A stretch of DNA of 64,000 bases from Saccharopolyspora hordei. Lineage in GTDB: Bacteria > Actinomycetota > Actinomycetes > Mycobacteriales > Pseudonocardiaceae. Below the pieces are notes generated by a model, which worked only from the letters and a program-made list of their open reading frames with translations, ran no database searches and was not told the origin of the DNA. Of this stretch, positions 32,163-41,758 are shown piece by piece. Location of the stretch: contig NZ_JACCFJ010000001.1 in the NCBI RefSeq assembly GCF_013410345.1, forward strand, positions 496,001-560,000. Direction: 5' to 3'. Made by a program: the position numbers and the translations under genes. Each line of letters starts with the position of its first letter. Positions within the stretch are counted from its first letter, which is position 1.

Positions 32163-33011
32163 ATGCCAGCCACTCCGACGCGCCGCAAGAAGCGACTGGG
32201 GCAGTTGCTCGCCCGACTTCGCAGCGACGCCAGCAAGTCGCTCGGCGACGCGAGCGCTTTGCTCCGCGTCAGTGAGCCGACGATCAGCCGCTACGAAACG
32301 GGGCACGTCCGCCCGGGTTGGGCTGCCCTGCAAGCACTGCTGGCGCTCTACAACGCGACCGATGAGGAACGCCTCGAAGCTGGTGCGTTGTGGGATGACG
32401 CAGGTGAACGCGCCACTCAGGTCATCACCCCGTCTGGTTCCCCGAAGGCGTTCCGGGCTTTCCTGCGTGCTGAAGCGGAAGCCCACAGCGCCCGGACGCT
32501 GGAGCCGCACGTAGTCCCTGGACTGCTGCAGACCCACGCCTACGCTCGGGCTGTCAACGAGAGCGGGCAGCAGTTCCACACCGCCGAACCCGCGCGCTAC
32601 GTAACGGCTCGGCTGAGTCGTCAAGCGCGGTTGGCCCCTCCGTCACCACTCCGCTTCCACGCGTTGATCGACGAGGCAGTGCTCCACCGAGCTGTGGGCG
32701 GACCCGAGGTGATGGCCGAGCAGCTCCACTACCTGGACGACTGCGCTGCTCGCGAGAACGTGACGATCCAGATCCTCCCGTTCAGCATGGGCGCGTACGG
32801 CACCATGTCCGGCGGCTTCACGATCATCGACTACGCCGACCCCGAAGACCCGCCCGCGGTCTACCTGGACTACGTCGCCGGCGGCGTCTGGGTGGAGAAT
32901 GTGAATGACGTACATCATTTCGCGGAGATGTTCTCGGAGATCGCTTCATCGGCGCTCCGCACCGATGAGTCCGTTGAGCTGATCCGCGAACGAGCGAAGG
33001 CATTGGGATGA
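32163..33011 (+). CDS. XRE family regulator with DUF5753 (Scr1-type) domain
   Basis: 282 residues. Helix-turn-helix at 13-70 (LSEPTISRYETG-like: RVSEPTISRYETGHVRPGWA) and a C-terminal DUF5753 domain from about 95: EPHVVPGLLQTHAYARAV, ILPFSMGAYGTMSGGFTIID and YLDYVAGGVWVEN. Such regulators pair with DUF397 proteins in actinomycetes and control development or antibiotic genes (for example WhiJ/Scr systems). Its ATGA overlap with the DUF397 gene indicates coupling. Confidence 0.93.
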   Translation: MPATPTRRKKRLGQLLARLRSDASKSLGDASALLRVSEPTISRYETGHVRPGWAALQALLALYNATDEERLEAGALWDDAGERATQVITPSGSPKAFRAFLRAEAEAHSARTLEPHVVPGLLQTHAYARAVNESGQQFHTAEPARYVTARLSRQARLAPPSPLRFHALIDEAVLHRAVGGPEVMAEQLHYLDDCAARENVTIQILPFSMGAYGTMSGGFTIIDYADPEDPPAVYLDYVAGGVWVENVNDVHHFAEMFSEIASSALRTDESVELIRERAKALG

Positions 33012-34849: not shown

Positions 34850-35620
34850 TCAGTCCAGGGCGCGGCGGAGGAAGAACGTGATCCCGAGCGCTCCGAAGAC
34901 CGCGCAGGACACCAGCAGGGCCAGCACGCAGATCCACGGGGCCATGTGCGGCACGTCCGGCAGCAGCGCGCCGCGCATCCCCTCGCTGACGTAGGTCAGC
35001 GGGTTGATCGCGCACAGCACCTGGAACCAGCGCAGGTGCCCCAGCTGCGCCCACGGGAACTGGGTCGCCCCGGTGAACATCAGCGGCGCCAGGATCACCG
35101 CGAACATGATGTTGATGCGGCGCGGCGGCACCGCGGCGCCCACGGTCAGGCCGACCGCGGCCCCCGCCAGCGAGCCCAGCAGCACGCAGAGCAGCGCGAA
35201 CCCGAGGCCGCGGTGGTTCCAGTCGATCTCGCCGAGCACCACCATGCCGATCGGCACCATCAGCACCGCCGCGAGCAGTCCGCGCAGCGCGCCGAAGAGC
35301 ATCTTCTCCACCGCCACCCAGCTGATCGGCAGCGGCGCCAGCAGGCGGTCCTCGATCTCCCGCGAGTACGAGAAGTCCAGCACCAGCGGGAAGGAGGTGT
35401 TCTGCAGCGACACCAGGAACGCGTTGAGCGCGATCATGCCCGGCAGCAGGATCTGCGCGTAGCCGGGCTGGGCGTAGCCGAGCTCGCTGAGCACCTTGCC
35501 GAAGATGAACAGCAGCGCCACCGGCTGGACCAGCACCTGCGCCAGGAAGCTCGGCAGCTCCCGGCCCGTCACGAACACGTCGCGGCCCAGCACCGCGGCG
35601 AAGGCGCGCACCGGACTCAT
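34850..35620 (-). CDS. ABC-2 type transporter permease (DrrB-like)
   Basis: 256 residues, six predicted membrane helices, ABC-2 membrane family: ELPSFLAQVLVQPVALLFIF near the N-terminus and a DRLLAPLPISW loop after helix 2. Together with the ATPase upstream it forms an export pump of the DrrAB type, typically for drugs or lipids. Its ATG overlaps the TGA of the ATPase gene (ATGA). Confidence 0.92.
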   Translation of the reverse strand: MSPVRAFAAVLGRDVFVTGRELPSFLAQVLVQPVALLFIFGKVLSELGYAQPGYAQILLPGMIALNAFLVSLQNTSFPLVLDFSYSREIEDRLLAPLPISWVAVEKMLFGALRGLLAAVLMVPIGMVVLGEIDWNHRGLGFALLCVLLGSLAGAAVGLTVGAAVPPRRINIMFAVILAPLMFTGATQFPWAQLGHLRWFQVLCAINPLTYVSEGMRGALLPDVPHMAPWICVLALLVSCAVFGALGITFFLRRALD

Positions 35621-36600
35621 CGCAGTTCCCTCCCGGTGAGGTCGATGAAGACGTCCTCGAGCGTCGCCGTGCCCAGCGACAGGTCGCTGACCGGGACCCG
35701 CTGCTCGTGCAGGACCTGGGCGACCGGGCCGAGCAGCGCGGCCGGCTCACCGCCGACGTAGAGCCGCAGCCGCAGCTCGGGCTCGCCGTCGGCCGCGGTG
35801 CCATCGCCGACCTTCTCCACCCGGTGCACACCGTCCACCGCGGACAGCAGTCCGGTGAGGCGGTCCGGCTCGTGGCCGTTCGGCCGCACCGTGGCGTCCA
35901 CCGTGCCGCTGCCCGGCAGCGACTTGATCAGCGCCTCCGGGGTGTCCAGGGTCAGCAGCCGGCCGTGGTCGACCACGCCGACCCGGTCGGAGAGCTTCTC
36001 CGCCTCGTCCATGTCGTGCGTGGTGAGCACGACGGTGACGCCCTCGGCGCGGAGGTCCCTGATGCGGTCGTGCACGAACAGCCGGGCCTGCGGGTCGAGC
36101 CCGGTGGACGGCTCGTCGAGGAACAGCACCTCGGGCTCGTGGGTGAGGGCGCGGGCGATCATCAGCCGCTGCGCCTGCCCGCCGGACAGGTCGTCGACGC
36201 GCGCCTTCGCCTTGTCCGCCAGCCCCATCCGCTCCAGCAGCTCGTCGGCGAGGCGGTGCCGCTCGGCCCGCGGCACCCCGTGGTAGGCGGCGTGCCAGAC
36301 GAGGTTCTGCCGCGCGTTGAGCGAGCGGTCCAGGTTCACCCGCTGCGGGACCACGGCGACCTTGCTGCGCGCGGCCACCGGGTCGGCGGCCACGTCGACC
36401 CCGGCGACGCGGGCGGTGCCGCTGGTCAGCAGCACGCGGGTGGTCAGGATGCCGACCGTGGTGGTCTTGCCCGCGCCGTTGGGGCCGAGCAGCCCGAAGA
36501 CCTCGCCCGCCTCCACCTGGAAGCTGAGCCCGTCCACCGCGTTGGTGCGGCTCTTCGGGTACCGCTTGACCAGGCCGATCACTTCAACCGCAGTGGTCAC
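35617..36600 (-). CDS. ABC transporter ATP-binding protein (DrrA-like)
   Basis: 327 residues. Walker A GPNGAGKTTT, signature LSGGQAQRL, Walker B VLFLDEPSTGLD and switch His in LTTHDMDEAE. The C-terminal 90 residues form the DrrA-type extension. Energises the ABC-2 permease encoded next to it. The divergent MarR gene starts 244 bp away and may control the pair. Confidence 0.94.
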   Translation of the reverse strand: MTTAVEVIGLVKRYPKSRTNAVDGLSFQVEAGEVFGLLGPNGAGKTTTVGILTTRVLLTSGTARVAGVDVAADPVAARSKVAVVPQRVNLDRSLNARQNLVWHAAYHGVPRAERHRLADELLERMGLADKAKARVDDLSGGQAQRLMIARALTHEPEVLFLDEPSTGLDPQARLFVHDRIRDLRAEGVTVVLTTHDMDEAEKLSDRVGVVDHGRLLTLDTPEALIKSLPGSGTVDATVRPNGHEPDRLTGLLSAVDGVHRVEKVGDGTAADGEPELRLRLYVGGEPAALLGPVAQVLHEQRVPVSDLSLGTATLEDVFIDLTGRELR

Positions 36601-36844: not shown

Positions 36845-37309
36845 GTGACAGAGGGCACTCGATGGCTGAACGATCGTGAGATGGGGGCGTGGCGCGCCTA
36901 CATCGTCGGCAGCGCGCTGCTGGAGCATCGTCTCAACCGGGACCTGCAGCTCTCCCACGACCTGTCGATCGCGGACTACGAGATCTTGGTCCGGCTCTCC
37001 GAGAGCCCGGACCAGCGGATGCGCATGAGCGAGCTGGCCAACGACGTGGCGCACTCCAAGAGCCGCACCTCGCACCAGGTCCGCCGCCTGGAAGCGGCCG
37101 GCCTGGTCCGCCGCGTCGAGTGCCCGGACGACGGCCGCGGTGTCCTCGCGGTGCTCACCGAGGCGGGCGCGGCGAAGCTCCGCGAGGCGGCCCCCGTCCA
37201 CGTGGCGAGCGTCCGCGAGAACCTGATCGACCTCCTCGACGAGCACGAGCAGGAGGTCCTGGGCCGGATCTTCGACCGGCTGACGGCTCACCTGGGCGGC
37301 ATCAAGTAG
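36845..37309 (+). CDS. MarR family transcriptional regulator
   Basis: 154 residues, winged helix: LSIADYEILVRLSES, MRMSELANDVAHSKSRTSHQ (recognition helix), VRRLEAAGLVRRVECPDDGR (wing). Dimerisation helices at both ends. Divergent from the DrrAB-like exporter, the usual arrangement for a repressor of an efflux pump. The start GTG 36845 has no upstream ribosome site and may be leaderless. Confidence 0.92.
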   Translation: MTEGTRWLNDREMGAWRAYIVGSALLEHRLNRDLQLSHDLSIADYEILVRLSESPDQRMRMSELANDVAHSKSRTSHQVRRLEAAGLVRRVECPDDGRGVLAVLTEAGAAKLREAAPVHVASVRENLIDLLDEHEQEVLGRIFDRLTAHLGGIK

Positions 37310-37356: not shown

Positions 37357-37441
37357 GGAAGCGTGGCAGAGCGGCCGAATGCACTCGCCTTGAAAGCGAG
37401 CGTCCCGAGAGGGACCGCGGGTTCGAATCCCGCCGCTTCCG
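37357..37441 (+). tRNA. tRNA-Ser(TGA)
   Basis: Acceptor GGAAGCG / CGCTTCC, anticodon loop CTTGAAA in stem CTCGC/GCGAG (anticodon TGA), long variable arm and T arm GGGTTCGAATCCC. Reads UCA/UCG. The graspetide operon begins about 900 bp downstream, but no integrase or repeated tRNA end was found. Confidence 0.97.
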
Positions 37442-37460
37442 CTCCAATGACCAGCGCAAA

Positions 37461-37495
37461 CAGAGCCCGGCGGGGACCTCCCCGACCGGGCTCTG
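37461..37495 (+). terminator. Terminator of tRNA-Ser(TGA)
   Basis: Arms CAGAGCCCGG and CCGGGCTCTG around a 15-nt loop that itself contains GGGG/CCCC. Confidence 0.8.
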
Positions 37496-37577
37496 TCGCG
37501 CTTCGTCTCAAATTTCGTCTCAGTCCTGGTCTCGATCGACTCTTCCTGGTGCGTCCTCGTCGGGGCTGGTGACGAGC

Positions 37578-38090
37578 TCAGCGCGGCGGTCGCTGCCTCG
37601 GCGCGGCCAGGAAGAGGATGCTCACGGCACCGAGCATGCCGCCGACGGCCATGGCGGCTCCGGCCCAGATCCGGGTGGTGCCCGACACCGCCTGGTCACC
37701 GTAGGGCCGCTCCGCAGGCGGGACCTCGGCGGCGATGCTGTCCACGAGCCGCTGGACCTCGTCCTGGTCCTCGGCCGACAGCCCGTCGTCCCCGAGCTGC
37801 TCGACCAGGTCCTGCACCTGATCTTCCTGGTCGTCGGTGAAACCCGTCAGGTGGACCCGCCCCGATCCGAGGCCCCCTTCCGGAACGCAGTCCAACACCT
37901 CCCCGTCCTCGATCCTGAGGTACAGGTCGTGCGCGTCACCGCACCCGGAACCAGGGACGAACCCGACCACGTAGGCCCGGTCGACGTAGCGCTGCTCCCC
38001 GAAGCCGACCAGCACGGACGTCGCACCGTACGCGGCCAGCGCCACACCGGCCAGGGCGCCGAGGAACGCCAGCACGAACCGCATCCACAC
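37578..38090 (-). CDS. Two-helix membrane protein with acidic extracellular loop
   Basis: 170 residues. N-terminal helix (FVLAFLGALAGVALAAYGAT), a 100-residue loop with two cysteines (GSGCGDAHDLYLRIEDGEVL followed by DC) and an acidic coiled segment, then a C-terminal helix (TRIWAGAAMAVGGMLGAVSI). GGAG lies 6 nt before GTG 38090; ATG 38084 is an alternative. No family recognised. It is transcribed in the same direction as the graspetide operon, about 160 bp downstream of it, but membership is not supported by spacing. Confidence 0.6.
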   Translation of the reverse strand: MWMRFVLAFLGALAGVALAAYGATSVLVGFGEQRYVDRAYVVGFVPGSGCGDAHDLYLRIEDGEVLDCVPEGGLGSGRVHLTGFTDDQEDQVQDLVEQLGDDGLSAEDQDEVQRLVDSIAAEVPPAERPYGDQAVSGTTRIWAGAAMAVGGMLGAVSILFLAAPRQRPPR

Positions 38091-38247
38091 CGCAGTCTCC
38101 CGCCCTCGGCCCACTCCGTCGCACGGAAGTGAAGCACGCGCACGACCGGTTCCGGGACGAGTCGGAGGAAGAACCCGCTGGCTCGACCTGGTCGTCTTGC
38201 TGGACGCCCGTGCTCGCAGCGCTGGGTCCAGGGGCTGGACCCGCTGG

Positions 38248-39402
38248 TCACGGCAGGCGCCAGCGGTGCTCGCCGTGCGGGTCGTCGATCCACACCTGCT
38301 GGTCGTCCGGAGTGACGGTCATGCCGAGGCGGGGCCAGTCCGGCTCGCCCGCCTCTCGCCACAGGTGGTGTGCTCGCTCGACCGCCCGCCACAGCGGGGT
38401 GGGGCCGCTCTCGGTCACCGACCACGTGCCCTCGCGCGTCGGTTCGAGCGCCACGAGAGCGTGCGACCCGTCGGGCGCGGTGACCGTCCCGGCCGTGGGC
38501 CGACGGGTGTCCGGGTCGAACCGCACCCCGGGGCGGACGCCGCTCGGCAGTCCGGTGAGGTGGGCCAGGAACCACACCACCCGGTCGCGCTCCCAGGGGT
38601 TCGGCGGCGCGGTCGTGGTGCGCGTCCGCCCGTCCTGACCGGCTGGCGCGCACTGTGCGCGCAGCCGCTCGTGGGGGTGGCGCATCGTCATGAATGCCGC
38701 CCACCGGTCCGTGAACCGCCCCGAGAGCCGGTCGCCGTCGCGGCGCAGCAGCACCAGGTTTCCCGCGCCGGTACCGACCTTGACGTCGACGAGCAACAGG
38801 CCGCCGTCGGCGAGCTGGTCCCGCCAGGCCACCGGCACGGCCGGCACCGAGCACGTCGCGATGATGCGGTCGTAGGGCGCGTGCTCGGGCAGTCCCCCGG
38901 CGCCGTCACGGGTGACGAGCGTCGGGTGGCGCCCGATCGAGGCGAGCCGGTCGCGTGCCGGGTCGACGAGCTCGGCGTCCAGGTCGACGGAGAACACCCG
39001 CTCGTCACCGAGCCGGTGCGCCAGAAGCGCCGCGTTGTAGCCGGTGCCGGTCCCGATCTCCAACACCCGGTGCCCGTCGTGGACGTCGAGGGATTCCAGC
39101 ATCCGCACCATGAGGTCGGGTTTGGTGCTGCTGGAGATCCCCTCGCGGTGCGTGCCCCGGTCGGCGAGGGCGGTCACCAGCGTGGTCGCCGAGTAGACCC
39201 GATCGAGCCCGCTCGGCGAGGTCAGGTCGAGCGGGTGCCACTCGCCGGTCGCGTCCTGCTCGTGGGCCTCCGGGACGAGCACGTGCCGCGGGGTCGCGGC
39301 GATCGCGGCCTTCCACGCCGGATCGGTGAGGTCCCCGCGGGCTTCGAGCTCGTCGGCGAGCGCCTGCGCACGGCTTTCCCACGCGACGTCGAGCGTGGTC
39401 AT
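38248..39402 (-). CDS. PIMT-like O-methyltransferase of a graspetide cluster
   Basis: 384 residues. Residues 1-220 resemble protein L-isoaspartyl O-methyltransferase: IAATPRHVLVPEA, YSATTLVTAL, SAM motif I LEIGTGTGYNAALLAHRLG and FSVDLDAELV. An extra C-terminal domain of about 160 residues is typical of methyltransferases encoded with ATP-grasp RiPP ligases. In fuscimiditide biosynthesis such an enzyme methylates one Asp of the cyclised peptide, which then closes to a stable aspartimide; the same role is inferred here. The ATG overlaps the ligase stop (ATGA), so the three genes are translationally coupled. Confidence 0.9.
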   Translation of the reverse strand: MTTLDVAWESRAQALADELEARGDLTDPAWKAAIAATPRHVLVPEAHEQDATGEWHPLDLTSPSGLDRVYSATTLVTALADRGTHREGISSSTKPDLMVRMLESLDVHDGHRVLEIGTGTGYNAALLAHRLGDERVFSVDLDAELVDPARDRLASIGRHPTLVTRDGAGGLPEHAPYDRIIATCSVPAVPVAWRDQLADGGLLLVDVKVGTGAGNLVLLRRDGDRLSGRFTDRWAAFMTMRHPHERLRAQCAPAGQDGRTRTTTAPPNPWERDRVVWFLAHLTGLPSGVRPGVRFDPDTRRPTAGTVTAPDGSHALVALEPTREGTWSVTESGPTPLWRAVERAHHLWREAGEPDWPRLGMTVTPDDQQVWIDDPHGEHRWRLP

Positions 39403-40352
39403 GGTCGCCCCTCCGTCAACAGGTCGGCGAGAGTCCCCGTCAGCGGCGCACCGGTGCAGGACTCGATCCACCCATACTGCCCACCCGGATTGACCTCCAG
39501 GAAGACCCACTCGCCCTCGGGGGTCACCACGAAGTCCAGCGCCCCGTACACCAGCCCGAGGCTCCGCATGAGTGCGTGGATCCCCTCGGTGACGCCGCTG
39601 GGCGGCTCGATCAGGTCGTACGACAGGGCGTCGTAGTCCGAGCGCCAGTCGACGCGGGAGGCGGCGTTGCCTGCGTAGATCGCGGCCGCGGTGAGGTGGT
39701 GGCCCAGGACGATGACGCGCACCTCGAACGCCTTCGGCACCCATCGCTGCACCAGGTGCGTGGTGACCTCGATCCCCCGCAGGTCGGCGAGGTCGTCCTC
39801 GACGAGCACACGCGTCCACGACAGCTTGCGCATGCCCTCTTCCGAGATCGTGTTCGCGCCCAGCAGCTTGGTGACCGTGCGTCCCTCGGCTGCGAACCGG
39901 CGCACGGTGTCGGCTTCGTTGGTGATGGCCGTGTCCGGGACCGTGAGCCCGCACTCGTACGCCCGGACGAGCTGCACAGGCTTGTACGCCGCGTCGGCCA
40001 TGCGAGCAGGGTGGTTCACCCAGAACACGGGCAGGCTGGACAGCACCCCGCCGAGGCCGTACTTGGCTTCCACGGAGGCGTGCTGGCGTTCCGGCGCCGA
40101 CAGCTCGTCGGGCATCCGGTACGCCTCAGGACTGCGGTACCACACCGCGTGGACTTCTTCCAGCTCCACGCAGTGCGCCGGTGTCCGCAGGTACCCGGAC
40201 CAGCGTCCGCCGCGCAGCCCAGCGGAAACACTGAGCTGCGCGGGGAACCACGCGGTGTTCACCCTGACCACCGGTGTGCCGCGTTCTCGTAGTGCGAGCA
40301 CCACGGCGTCGGCAGACGGGTCGAGATCCCTCGCGAGGACCAGGACCGTCAT
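39399..40352 (-). CDS. ATP-grasp ligase installing omega-ester/amide links in a RiPP precursor
   Basis: 317 residues. The N-terminal pre-ATP-grasp domain ends at AVWYRSPEAYRMP. The ATP-grasp fold holds the lysine of TVTKLLGANTIS, VQRWVPKAFEVRVIVLG, and the metal-binding LDFVVTPEGEWVFLEVNPGG (Asp, Glu, Asn). It belongs to the MvdC/MvdD-like peptide ligases. These phosphorylate Asp/Glu side chains of a precursor and join them to Ser, Thr or Lys side chains. Start ATG 40352 overlaps the precursor stop (ATGA). Confidence 0.92.
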   Translation of the reverse strand: MTVLVLARDLDPSADAVVLALRERGTPVVRVNTAWFPAQLSVSAGLRGGRWSGYLRTPAHCVELEEVHAVWYRSPEAYRMPDELSAPERQHASVEAKYGLGGVLSSLPVFWVNHPARMADAAYKPVQLVRAYECGLTVPDTAITNEADTVRRFAAEGRTVTKLLGANTISEEGMRKLSWTRVLVEDDLADLRGIEVTTHLVQRWVPKAFEVRVIVLGHHLTAAAIYAGNAASRVDWRSDYDALSYDLIEPPSGVTEGIHALMRSLGLVYGALDFVVTPEGEWVFLEVNPGGQYGWIESCTGAPLTGTLADLLTEGRP

Positions 40353-40708
40353 GCAGGTGTTCCCGGTGCGTCTCCGATGAAGTCGTGCACCCAATCCTCG
40401 TTCGGCCCCTCGTCACCGTCGAGGCTCGACACCGAGTCCGCGGACGGGTCCGTGCGCAGTTCGTTGAGCGCAGTCCCGTCGAGGTCCACCGCGATCTGCC
40501 TCTCGTGGTCATAGCGCCACGCAGGCAACGGCTCCACCGTCTTGTTCGACAGCGCTGACATGCCCCGCAACCCCCACGGGCGGACTCCCTCCCCGGAGGC
40601 AGGGGCGGTGTTGTTCGACGCCCCCAGCGGGCGGCCGAGCGGGAACTGCGCGCTGTCGGGTGCGATCGGGTCGTGCGCGAAACGCGTCGTCATCACAGCA
40701 GAGTTCAT
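40349..40708 (-). CDS. Graspetide precursor peptide (putative ATP-grasp target RiPP)
   Basis: 119 residues from ATG 40708 (GAGAG upstream; ATG 40693 possible). The leader has the family motif RPWGLRGM (43-50), related to PFGLRxM leaders of actinobacterial ATP-grasp targets, and a conserved-looking WRYDHERQIAVDLDGTA (64-80). The likely core is residues 86-119, with hydroxyl residues Thr86, Ser89, Ser92, Ser94 and Ser95 followed by acidic residues Asp97, Asp99, Glu100, Glu104, Asp105, Asp109 and Asp113. This Ser/Thr-then-acid order matches graspetide ring formation. Asp97-Gly98 is a good aspartimide site. Exact ring topology cannot be read from sequence. No protease or exporter gene is present in the operon. 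Confidence 0.85.
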   Translation of the reverse strand: MNSAVMTTRFAHDPIAPDSAQFPLGRPLGASNNTAPASGEGVRPWGLRGMSALSNKTVEPLPAWRYDHERQIAVDLDGTALNELRTDPSADSVSSLDGDEGPNEDWVHDFIGDAPGTPA

Positions 40709-40757
40709 GATCGAACTCTCGCGCACCCGAAGCGCGAAGGCGGGTATGTCGTGCACG

Positions 40758-40797
40758 CCTACCCGATCAGCGGACCGCCCCTACCCGATCAGTGGAC
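40758..40797. repeat. 22-bp-spaced direct repeat upstream of the graspetide operon
   Basis: CCTACCCGATCAGCGGAC (40758-40775) and CCTACCCGATCAGTGGAC (40780-40797) match at 17 of 18 bases and are two helical turns apart. They lie 50-90 bp upstream of the precursor start, in the spacer shared with the divergent dipeptidase gene. Probable activator or repressor site. Confidence 0.7.
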
Positions 40798-40900
40798 GGC
40801 GGCGAACGCGGGCAGGTGGGGCTGCGGTGATCTGGTCGGCGGGCTCGGTGCCTCCGCTCGACCGGTGCGCTGGTGGGGTTCGGGGGGCTACCGTGGCGGC

Positions 40901-41758
40901 ATGATCCGTGGTGCGCGGCTGGTCTCGGCGGTGGCGTTCGTGTTCGTGGCGGCGGCGTGCGGGACGGCTGCGCCGCCTGCTCCGGCGCCGCCCAGTCCGC
41001 CCGCGGAGAGCCCGGCTCCGCCGAGCCCCGCGCCGTCGAGCCCGGCGGCCGAGGTGGAGCACGCGCCGGCCGGGTTCGTGCGGTTGCGGGACGTCGATCC
41101 CTCGATCATCGAGGAGATGCGCTACGCGACGCCGCACAACTTCACCGGGGACCCGGTGCCCGGCTACGACGAGCCGATGTGCGTGGTGACGCAGCCGCTC
41201 GCCGACGCGCTGCACCAGGCGCAGCAGCGGCTCACCAGCCAGGGCTACAGCCTCAAGGTCTACGACTGCTACCGGCCGCAGCGCGCCGTGTCGCACTTCG
41301 TCGAGTGGTCGAAGGACGTCGACGACCACCGCATGAAGGAGGAGTTTTACCCGGGCCTGGACAAGTCGCGGCTGTTCGCCGAGGGCTACATCGCCGAGCA
41401 CTCCGGGCACAGCCGGGGCAGCTCCGTCGACCTGACCATCGTCACGCTGCCCGCCGCGCCGCAGCGCCCCTACCAGCCCGGCGAGCCGCTGACCCCGTGC
41501 ACCGCCCCGGCCGGGGAGCGGTTCCCGGACAACAGCGTCGACATGGCCACCGGCTACGACTGCTTCGACAGCCTCGCGCACACCGACGACCCGCGGGTGA
41601 CCGGCGAGGCCAGGGCCAACCGGGACCTGCTGCGCGACGTGCTCACCGCGGCCGGGCTGGAGAACTACGAGTACGAGTGGTGGCACTTCAACCTGCCGGA
41701 GGAGCCGTTCCCGGACCAGTACTTCGACTTCCCGGTGAACAGCGCCGCCTTCCGGTGA
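40901..41758 (+). CDS. VanX-like D-alanyl-D-alanine dipeptidase lipoprotein (peptidase M15)
   Basis: 285 residues. Lipobox AAACG after a short hydrophobic segment, a 30-residue Pro/Ser linker, then an M15D domain with YDCYRPQRAV, the zinc motif SGHSRGSSVDLT (His and Asp) and EYEWWHFN (catalytic Glu and zinc His). Secreted lipoproteins of this family cleave D-Ala-D-Ala or related peptidoglycan dipeptides. ATG 40901 is preceded by TACCGT 6 nt upstream, so the transcript may be leaderless. Divergent from the graspetide operon. Convergent with the DUF899 gene. Confidence 0.92.
   Translation: MIRGARLVSAVAFVFVAAACGTAAPPAPAPPSPPAESPAPPSPAPSSPAAEVEHAPAGFVRLRDVDPSIIEEMRYATPHNFTGDPVPGYDEPMCVVTQPLADALHQAQQRLTSQGYSLKVYDCYRPQRAVSHFVEWSKDVDDHRMKEEFYPGLDKSRLFAEGYIAEHSGHSRGSSVDLTIVTLPAAPQRPYQPGEPLTPCTAPAGERFPDNSVDMATGYDCFDSLAHTDDPRVTGEARANRDLLRDVLTAAGLENYEYEWWHFNLPEEPFPDQYFDFPVNSAAFR

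Follow-up and report, generated by a model that had tools for sequence, protein, structure and literature searches.

The window analysed here is a 64,000-nucleotide stretch of Saccharopolyspora hordei (assembly GCF_013410345.1, contig NZ_JACCFJ010000001.1, positions 496,001 to 560,000 of the forward strand), and it holds a compact three-gene operon, running from 40708 to 38248 on the minus strand, which very probably makes an aspartimidylated graspetide. Its sequences identify the locus as a cluster for a group 13 graspetide ("graspimiditide"), consisting of a precursor, an ATP-grasp ligase and a methyltransferase resembling protein isoaspartyl methyltransferase (PIMT), in that order. An earlier interpretation of the same DNA (the sequence-only reading) had placed the locus in the graspetide class, and this is borne out by a ligase that exceeds the cut-off of TIGR04187, a model specific to ribosomally synthesised and post-translationally modified peptides (RiPPs), and that is found together with the precursor in 28 of the 29 relative loci examined.

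Gene organisation and family assignment

The precursor (40349..40708) encodes 119 residues, the ATP-grasp ligase or graspetide synthetase (39399..40352) 317 residues and the PIMT-like O-methyltransferase with its C-terminal domain (38248..39402) 384 residues. Both gene junctions are ATGA overlaps, at 40349-40352 and 39399-39402, and all three reading frames are intact. The coordinates, protein lengths, overlaps and common direction agree with the sequence-only reading, to which the strand (minus) can now be added. The host genome is a single 5.78-Mb contig with one match to TIGR04186 and one ligase above the TIGR04187 cut-off.

The precursor passes the cut-off of the graspetide precursor model TIGR04186 (GRASP_targ; 30.9 bits, cut-off 25), with the match confined to model positions 1-40 of 72 and hence to the leader part (leader approximately residues 1-85, core approximately 86-119). 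The leader carries the expected PWGLRxM-like motif as RPWGLRGM (residues 43-50; 40559..40582), which is probably the ligase recognition site; in the fuscimiditide precursor, the key sequence for recognition is reported to be RPFG (PMC13003496). The putative core, residues 86-119 (40352..40453), contains neither Lys nor Arg and is the fragment expected from trypsin cleavage at Arg85. Its predicted Ser/Thr-then-Asp/Glu arrangement is also present, with Ser89, Ser92, Ser94 and Ser95 before Asp97-Gly98 (40415..40420), the predicted aspartimide site in the loop, and Glu104, Asp105, Asp109 and Asp113 after it. Of these, S89, S92 and S94 are the putative donors and E104, D105, D109 and D113 the putative acceptors, with D105, D109 and D113 spaced four residues apart. 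The window core combines hydroxyl donors, a loop Asp followed by Gly, and acidic acceptors, as expected of the class.

The ligase matches the whole of TIGR04187 (model positions 1-312 of 312) with 366.6 bits against a cut-off of 350, which places it in the RiPP ATP-grasp family. It had been described as an MvdC-like ATP-grasp ligase, and the second half of that description stands, but the first does not. Its scores against MvdD (193.8 bits, cut-off 475) and MvdC (178.2 bits, cut-off 425) fall far below both equivalog cut-offs, so that identity as an MvdC/MvdD microviridin ligase was rejected and the protein is better named as a TIGR04187 (SAV_5884) type ligase. It carries the pre-ATP-grasp domain PF21068 and aligns over nearly its full length to the solved chains 9bou, 7m4s (AMdnB), 7mgv (CdnC), 5ig9 and 5ig8, the last two of which we take to be microviridin ligases.

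The description of the third gene product as a PIMT-like methyltransferase is upheld by its match to PCMT and by a predicted PIMT-homologue fold; against TIGR04188 it covers the full model but scores below the cut-off (see below). It was rejected as a housekeeping PIMT, scoring 92.2 bits against TIGR00080, whose cut-off is 159.05. A structure was predicted for this protein only (mean predicted local distance difference test score, pLDDT, 91.1), and the model places a beta-alpha-beta4-alpha arrangement at the C-terminus (strand 259-263, helices 269-272 and 274-283, strands 290-295, 302-308, 314-318 and 327-332, helix 337-350), followed by three further strands. RiPP-associated PIMT homologues are described as having this topology in their C-terminal domain, and the top fold match of the model, 1DL5 of Thermotoga maritima (377 aligned columns, template modelling score 0.56 by query and 0.67 by target, root-mean-square deviation 7.8, 22% identity), is reported as the only solved enzyme of that clade (PMC10787088). 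On the predicted model, then, the methyltransferase has the C-terminal domain of the RiPP-associated (PAMT-type) homologues.

Conservation, co-occurrence and selection

A match to the precursor was found in 26 of the 150 genomes searched, the host's own included, and 10 of the 21 congeners are among them. The methyltransferase was also seen in 25 of the 29 relative loci mentioned above (L042 and L069 of this set are one cluster, and nine further precursor matches without a locus stand outside the count). The sequence-only reading would have been undermined by a precursor that occurs with no ligase in related genomes, and only L062 has a precursor lacking both ligase and methyltransferase. In L060, L065 and L069 the methyltransferase was not seen within the short stretches available, and L042, the same cluster as L069, does have it. 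Seen from the ligase, a methyltransferase homologue is present, at least in part, in all 38 ligase loci, and only nine of these have a precursor similar enough to match that of the window, many of the others being Streptomyces loci.

Thirty-two precursors were aligned with no motif filter, 31 of the rows having been found by similarity to the window precursor and one (L064) by a motif scan. Broken, short or overrunning precursors (L005 and L006, in two pieces each, L043b, L049 and L062) and duplicates were left out, while L043 was kept as an 83-residue piece; a motif scan of the Streptomyces loci found none of the usual precursors, and Streptomyces is therefore absent from the alignment. The leader is highly conserved at Pro44 (31/32, Ala in S. 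shandongensis), Leu47 (31/32), Tyr66 (31/32) and Gln71 (32/32), as is the loop at Asp97 (30/32) and Gly98 (29/32). Acidic residues occupy column 104 in 31 rows, column 105 in 30 and column 109 in 31, and Ser or Thr is found at donor columns 89, 92 and 94 in 22, 27 and 21 rows, respectively. Ser stands at all three donor columns in the window core and in five other rows.

One pair of columns varies together. Column 113 is acidic in 18 rows, every one of which has Ser/Thr at 94, compared with 3 of the 14 other rows, and the pattern is reversed at column 93, where Ser/Thr occurs in 2 of those 18 rows and 9 of the 14 others. Since the rows are related by descent, this pairing is no independent test, yet it suggests that a longer stem would use donor 94 with acceptor 113 and a shorter stem donors 89 and 93 with acceptors 105 and 109. 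The ring residues of fuscimiditide are reported as Thr3, Thr7, Asp18 and Asp22 (PMC12291112), likewise spaced four and four as in the putative shorter stem of the relatives.

All three genes are under purifying selection. The ratio of nonsynonymous to synonymous substitution rates (dN/dS) against S. rectivirgula is 0.243 for the precursor, 0.114 for the ligase and 0.266 for the methyltransferase, and against S. shandongensis 0.200, 0.156 and 0.223, with dN of the precursor core about twice that of the leader. The clusters of these two species (L002 and L003) consist of the same three genes, with ligases 92% and 85% identical to that of the window and the same DGDEG loop, whereas their flanking genes have no match to those of the window (little upstream DNA is available for L002). 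S. shandongensis differs in having RAWG in place of RPWG in its ligase-adjacent precursor. It also has, some 0.5 kb upstream of its ligase gene, a second precursor-like open reading frame (ORF; L003 5241-5489, equivalent to L042 and L069), with an RPWG leader and a core without Asp-Gly.

Signs of decay or of assembly error were seen in several relatives, namely in A. mortivallis, whose ligase (L010) is interrupted by a stop at codon 39, in S. subtropica (L036), which has a ligase fragment and overlapping methyltransferase pieces, in L062, whose precursor stands without a ligase, and in two metagenome-assembled genomes (L005 and L006) and L043 (genome G006), where the precursors are split across frames. 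A ligase fragment in G019 is a further sign of decay.

Proposed biosynthesis and alternative explanations

By analogy with the characterised members fuscimiditide, amycolimiditide and SsfA, we infer a pathway that runs from leader binding through esterification and methylation to aspartimide closure. The ligase would bind the RPWGLRGM motif and, in an ATP-dependent reaction, phosphorylate the Asp side chains that follow the loop (D105, D109, D113). The activated residues would then be joined to the Ser hydroxyls preceding it (S94, S92, S89) to produce a stem-loop of nested omega-ester rings, two or three in number. The innermost ring is probably the one between S94 and D105; if so, it would enclose a loop of 10 residues, the same size as that of fuscimiditide. 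Once the peptide is cyclised, the methyltransferase would methylate Asp97, which the Gly98 amide would then attack to form the aspartimide; this may open slowly to isoAsp or Asp. The leader would be removed by a protease encoded elsewhere.

Several observations weigh against this proposal. The methyltransferase scores 346.4 bits against TIGR04188, below the curated cut-off of 380, though the model is fully covered (1-363 of 363). No Pfam family fits the precursor in a Pfam profile search, and neither the precursor nor its L056 relative matched any PDB chain at E values up to 10, for which reason comparison with a solved fuscimiditide or amycolimiditide structure was dropped. Donors 89 and 94 are Ser/Thr in only about two-thirds of the aligned precursors, and the connectivity is therefore not fixed. 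Lastly, inspection by eye showed an upstream region unlike that of the relatives and no counterpart to the strong purine-rich ribosome-binding site that precedes several of their precursors, which makes expression uncertain.

This last point, together with degraded copies elsewhere (the ligase fragment of G019, the ligase-less L062 and the interrupted ligase of L010), could be taken to mean that the operon is a silent cassette whose intact genes have gone unexpressed since their arrival in the genome. We regard this as decidedly unlikely considering the three intact frames and the dN/dS values of 0.11-0.27 against S. rectivirgula. Also unlikely is a ring topology other than a simple Ser-Asp ester stem, such as one in which Glu104 serves as acceptor or in which, among relatives, Lys forms lactams: the near-universal acidic residue at position 104 and the presence of Lys at or beside column 92 in L008, L046, L050 and L051 speak for it, but the window core lacks Lys and replacement of acceptor Asp by Glu is reported not to be accepted by the ligase ThfB (PMC12291112). 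A less remote possibility, though still somewhat unlikely, is that the rings form as proposed and the final product carries isoaspartate and not a lasting aspartimide, as for SsfA. The methyltransferase SsfM is reported to give an isoAsp/Asp mixture (PMC10787088), and the aspartimides of fuscimiditide and amycolimiditide are stated to hydrolyse mostly to isoAsp (PMC13001092). Sequence alone does not discriminate between these two end states, and as they differ in nothing else this outcome is compatible with the production of an aspartimidylated graspetide.

Genomic setting and history

The cluster lies within a variable interval (approximately 37497-40883) that has no DNA match to the congener stretches L091, L092 and L093, and which also holds a 178-residue ORF found in one of 22 genus genomes, the host's own. 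Around it, the MarR gene, tRNA-Ser(UGA) (37357..37442, plus strand), which marks the border of the interval and is outside the operon, and then the M15 peptidase and DUF899 genes form a backbone common to L092 and L093. In L091 (5238-5346), just the 3' half of tRNA-Ser is left at this border, which is what an integrated element might leave; farther up in L091 an ORF (1807-2628) is presumably GntR-like. No att-site repeat was evident, in that 13-base matches to 37357-37560 were confined, elsewhere in the window, to three further tRNA genes.

In a ligase tree the ligase of the window groups with that of S. rectivirgula (G020; support 99/95) and then with those of G008 and G006 (98/95). Of the 21 congeners, S. 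rectivirgula has the lowest rpoB DNA identity to the host (90.2%), making it the farthest, and G004 is the nearest (95.5%); the two next-nearest species on this measure have either no ligase or only distant ones. No ligase was found in G004 or G002 at E 1e-30, and the ligases of G014, G012 and G013 are only 51, 51 and 57% identical to that of the window. As the nearest ligase is in the most distant congener, either horizontal transfer or repeated loss must be invoked, and we favour the former, as a preference and not as something proven. Going further, one might propose three nested rings formed entirely of Ser-Asp esters (S94, S92 and S89 with D105, D109 and D113) on a cassette moving between Saccharopolyspora lineages via a tRNA-Ser(UGA) attachment hotspot. 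We hold this combined picture only tentatively and consider it doubtful; if true, it would bring an all-Ser-Asp stem chemistry unreported for the four characterised members.

Neither a protease nor an exporter appears to belong to the cluster, as had been noted from the sequence: when the 21 window ORFs flanking it were compared with 67 relative loci (E 1e-8; many stretches short), only a DUF5753-type regulator (matching weakly in 11 of the 67 loci) and a cytochrome P450 (27% identity in L005) matched. The ABC-2 transporter (34850-36600), MarR (36845-37309) and M15 peptidase (40901-41758) genes were rejected as cluster parts because they wholly or partly belong to the L092/L093 backbone, where this cluster is absent from between the parts, and because no copies of them were seen next to the clusters of relatives within the sequence compared. 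The P450 gene (33272-34825, minus strand) adjoins the ABC-2 transporter pair, and no link to the cluster was found. DUF5753-type regulators are common in actinobacteria, and the one in the window (HTH_31-DUF5753, 32163-33011, plus strand) lies at a distance of approximately 7 kb from the graspetide genes. DUF397/DUF5753 has been reported to co-occur with group 13 (PMC13097080).

Upstream of the precursor is a direct repeat of 21 nucleotides (40758-40778 and 40780-40800; 90% identical, spacing 22). Its 16-base pattern has two exact matches in the genome, both here, and 11 further places with two mismatches, compared with four control matches. No copy of the repeat was seen ahead of the precursors of relatives (150 bases compared for L002 and L041). 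A reading of the repeat as an operator was considered and not retained.

Comparison with known graspetides and related peptides

Group 13 graspetides are numerous: 1326 clusters have been catalogued, and two further surveys count 962 and 1432 (PMC13001092). In the literature searched, which did not include the main surveys, we found no paper on the window core or its DGDEGPSED segment, and the core may yet be identical to that of a listed cluster; nor did we find a paper linking S. rectivirgula with a RiPP. The same source describes the function of aspartimidylated peptides as an open question for the class (PMC13001092), and the window locus adds material to this question without answering it.

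Related systems share some of its parts. The microviridin enzymes MvdC and MvdD have the pre-ATP-grasp domain PF21068 and the fold family in common with the window ligase, whereas the microviridin leader motif is reported as PFFARFL (PMC8939145) in place of RPWGLRGM, and the window cluster has an added methyltransferase. In imiditides and type I pamtides a PIMT homologue acts on an Asp of a ribosomal peptide, as predicted for the window, but there the enzyme is reported to act on a linear peptide with no ring-forming enzyme (PMC13001092). The overlapping and conserved ligase gene rules out such an identity for the window locus.

The closest counterparts are the four characterised graspimiditides, fuscimiditide, amycolimiditide, albusimiditide and SsfA, which like the window locus combine a precursor, an ATP-grasp ligase and a PIMT homologue with an RP(F/W)G leader, and which likewise have their hydroxyl donors ahead of the Asp-Gly loop and their acidic acceptors behind it. 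These four are reported to use Thr-Asp esters, with Gly after the methylated Asp (PMC13001092), whereas the putative donors of the window core are all Ser. This does not exclude the core from the class, because ThfB is reported to tolerate Thr-to-Ser replacement (PMC12291112). A Ser-only stem is the one chemically interesting prediction for this locus, whose peptide family is already well described. What the window offers beside the four known members is a complete and compact set of three genes whose core can be released by trypsin, and for which an all-Ser ester stem and the joint presence or absence of donor 94 and acceptor 113 are predicted.
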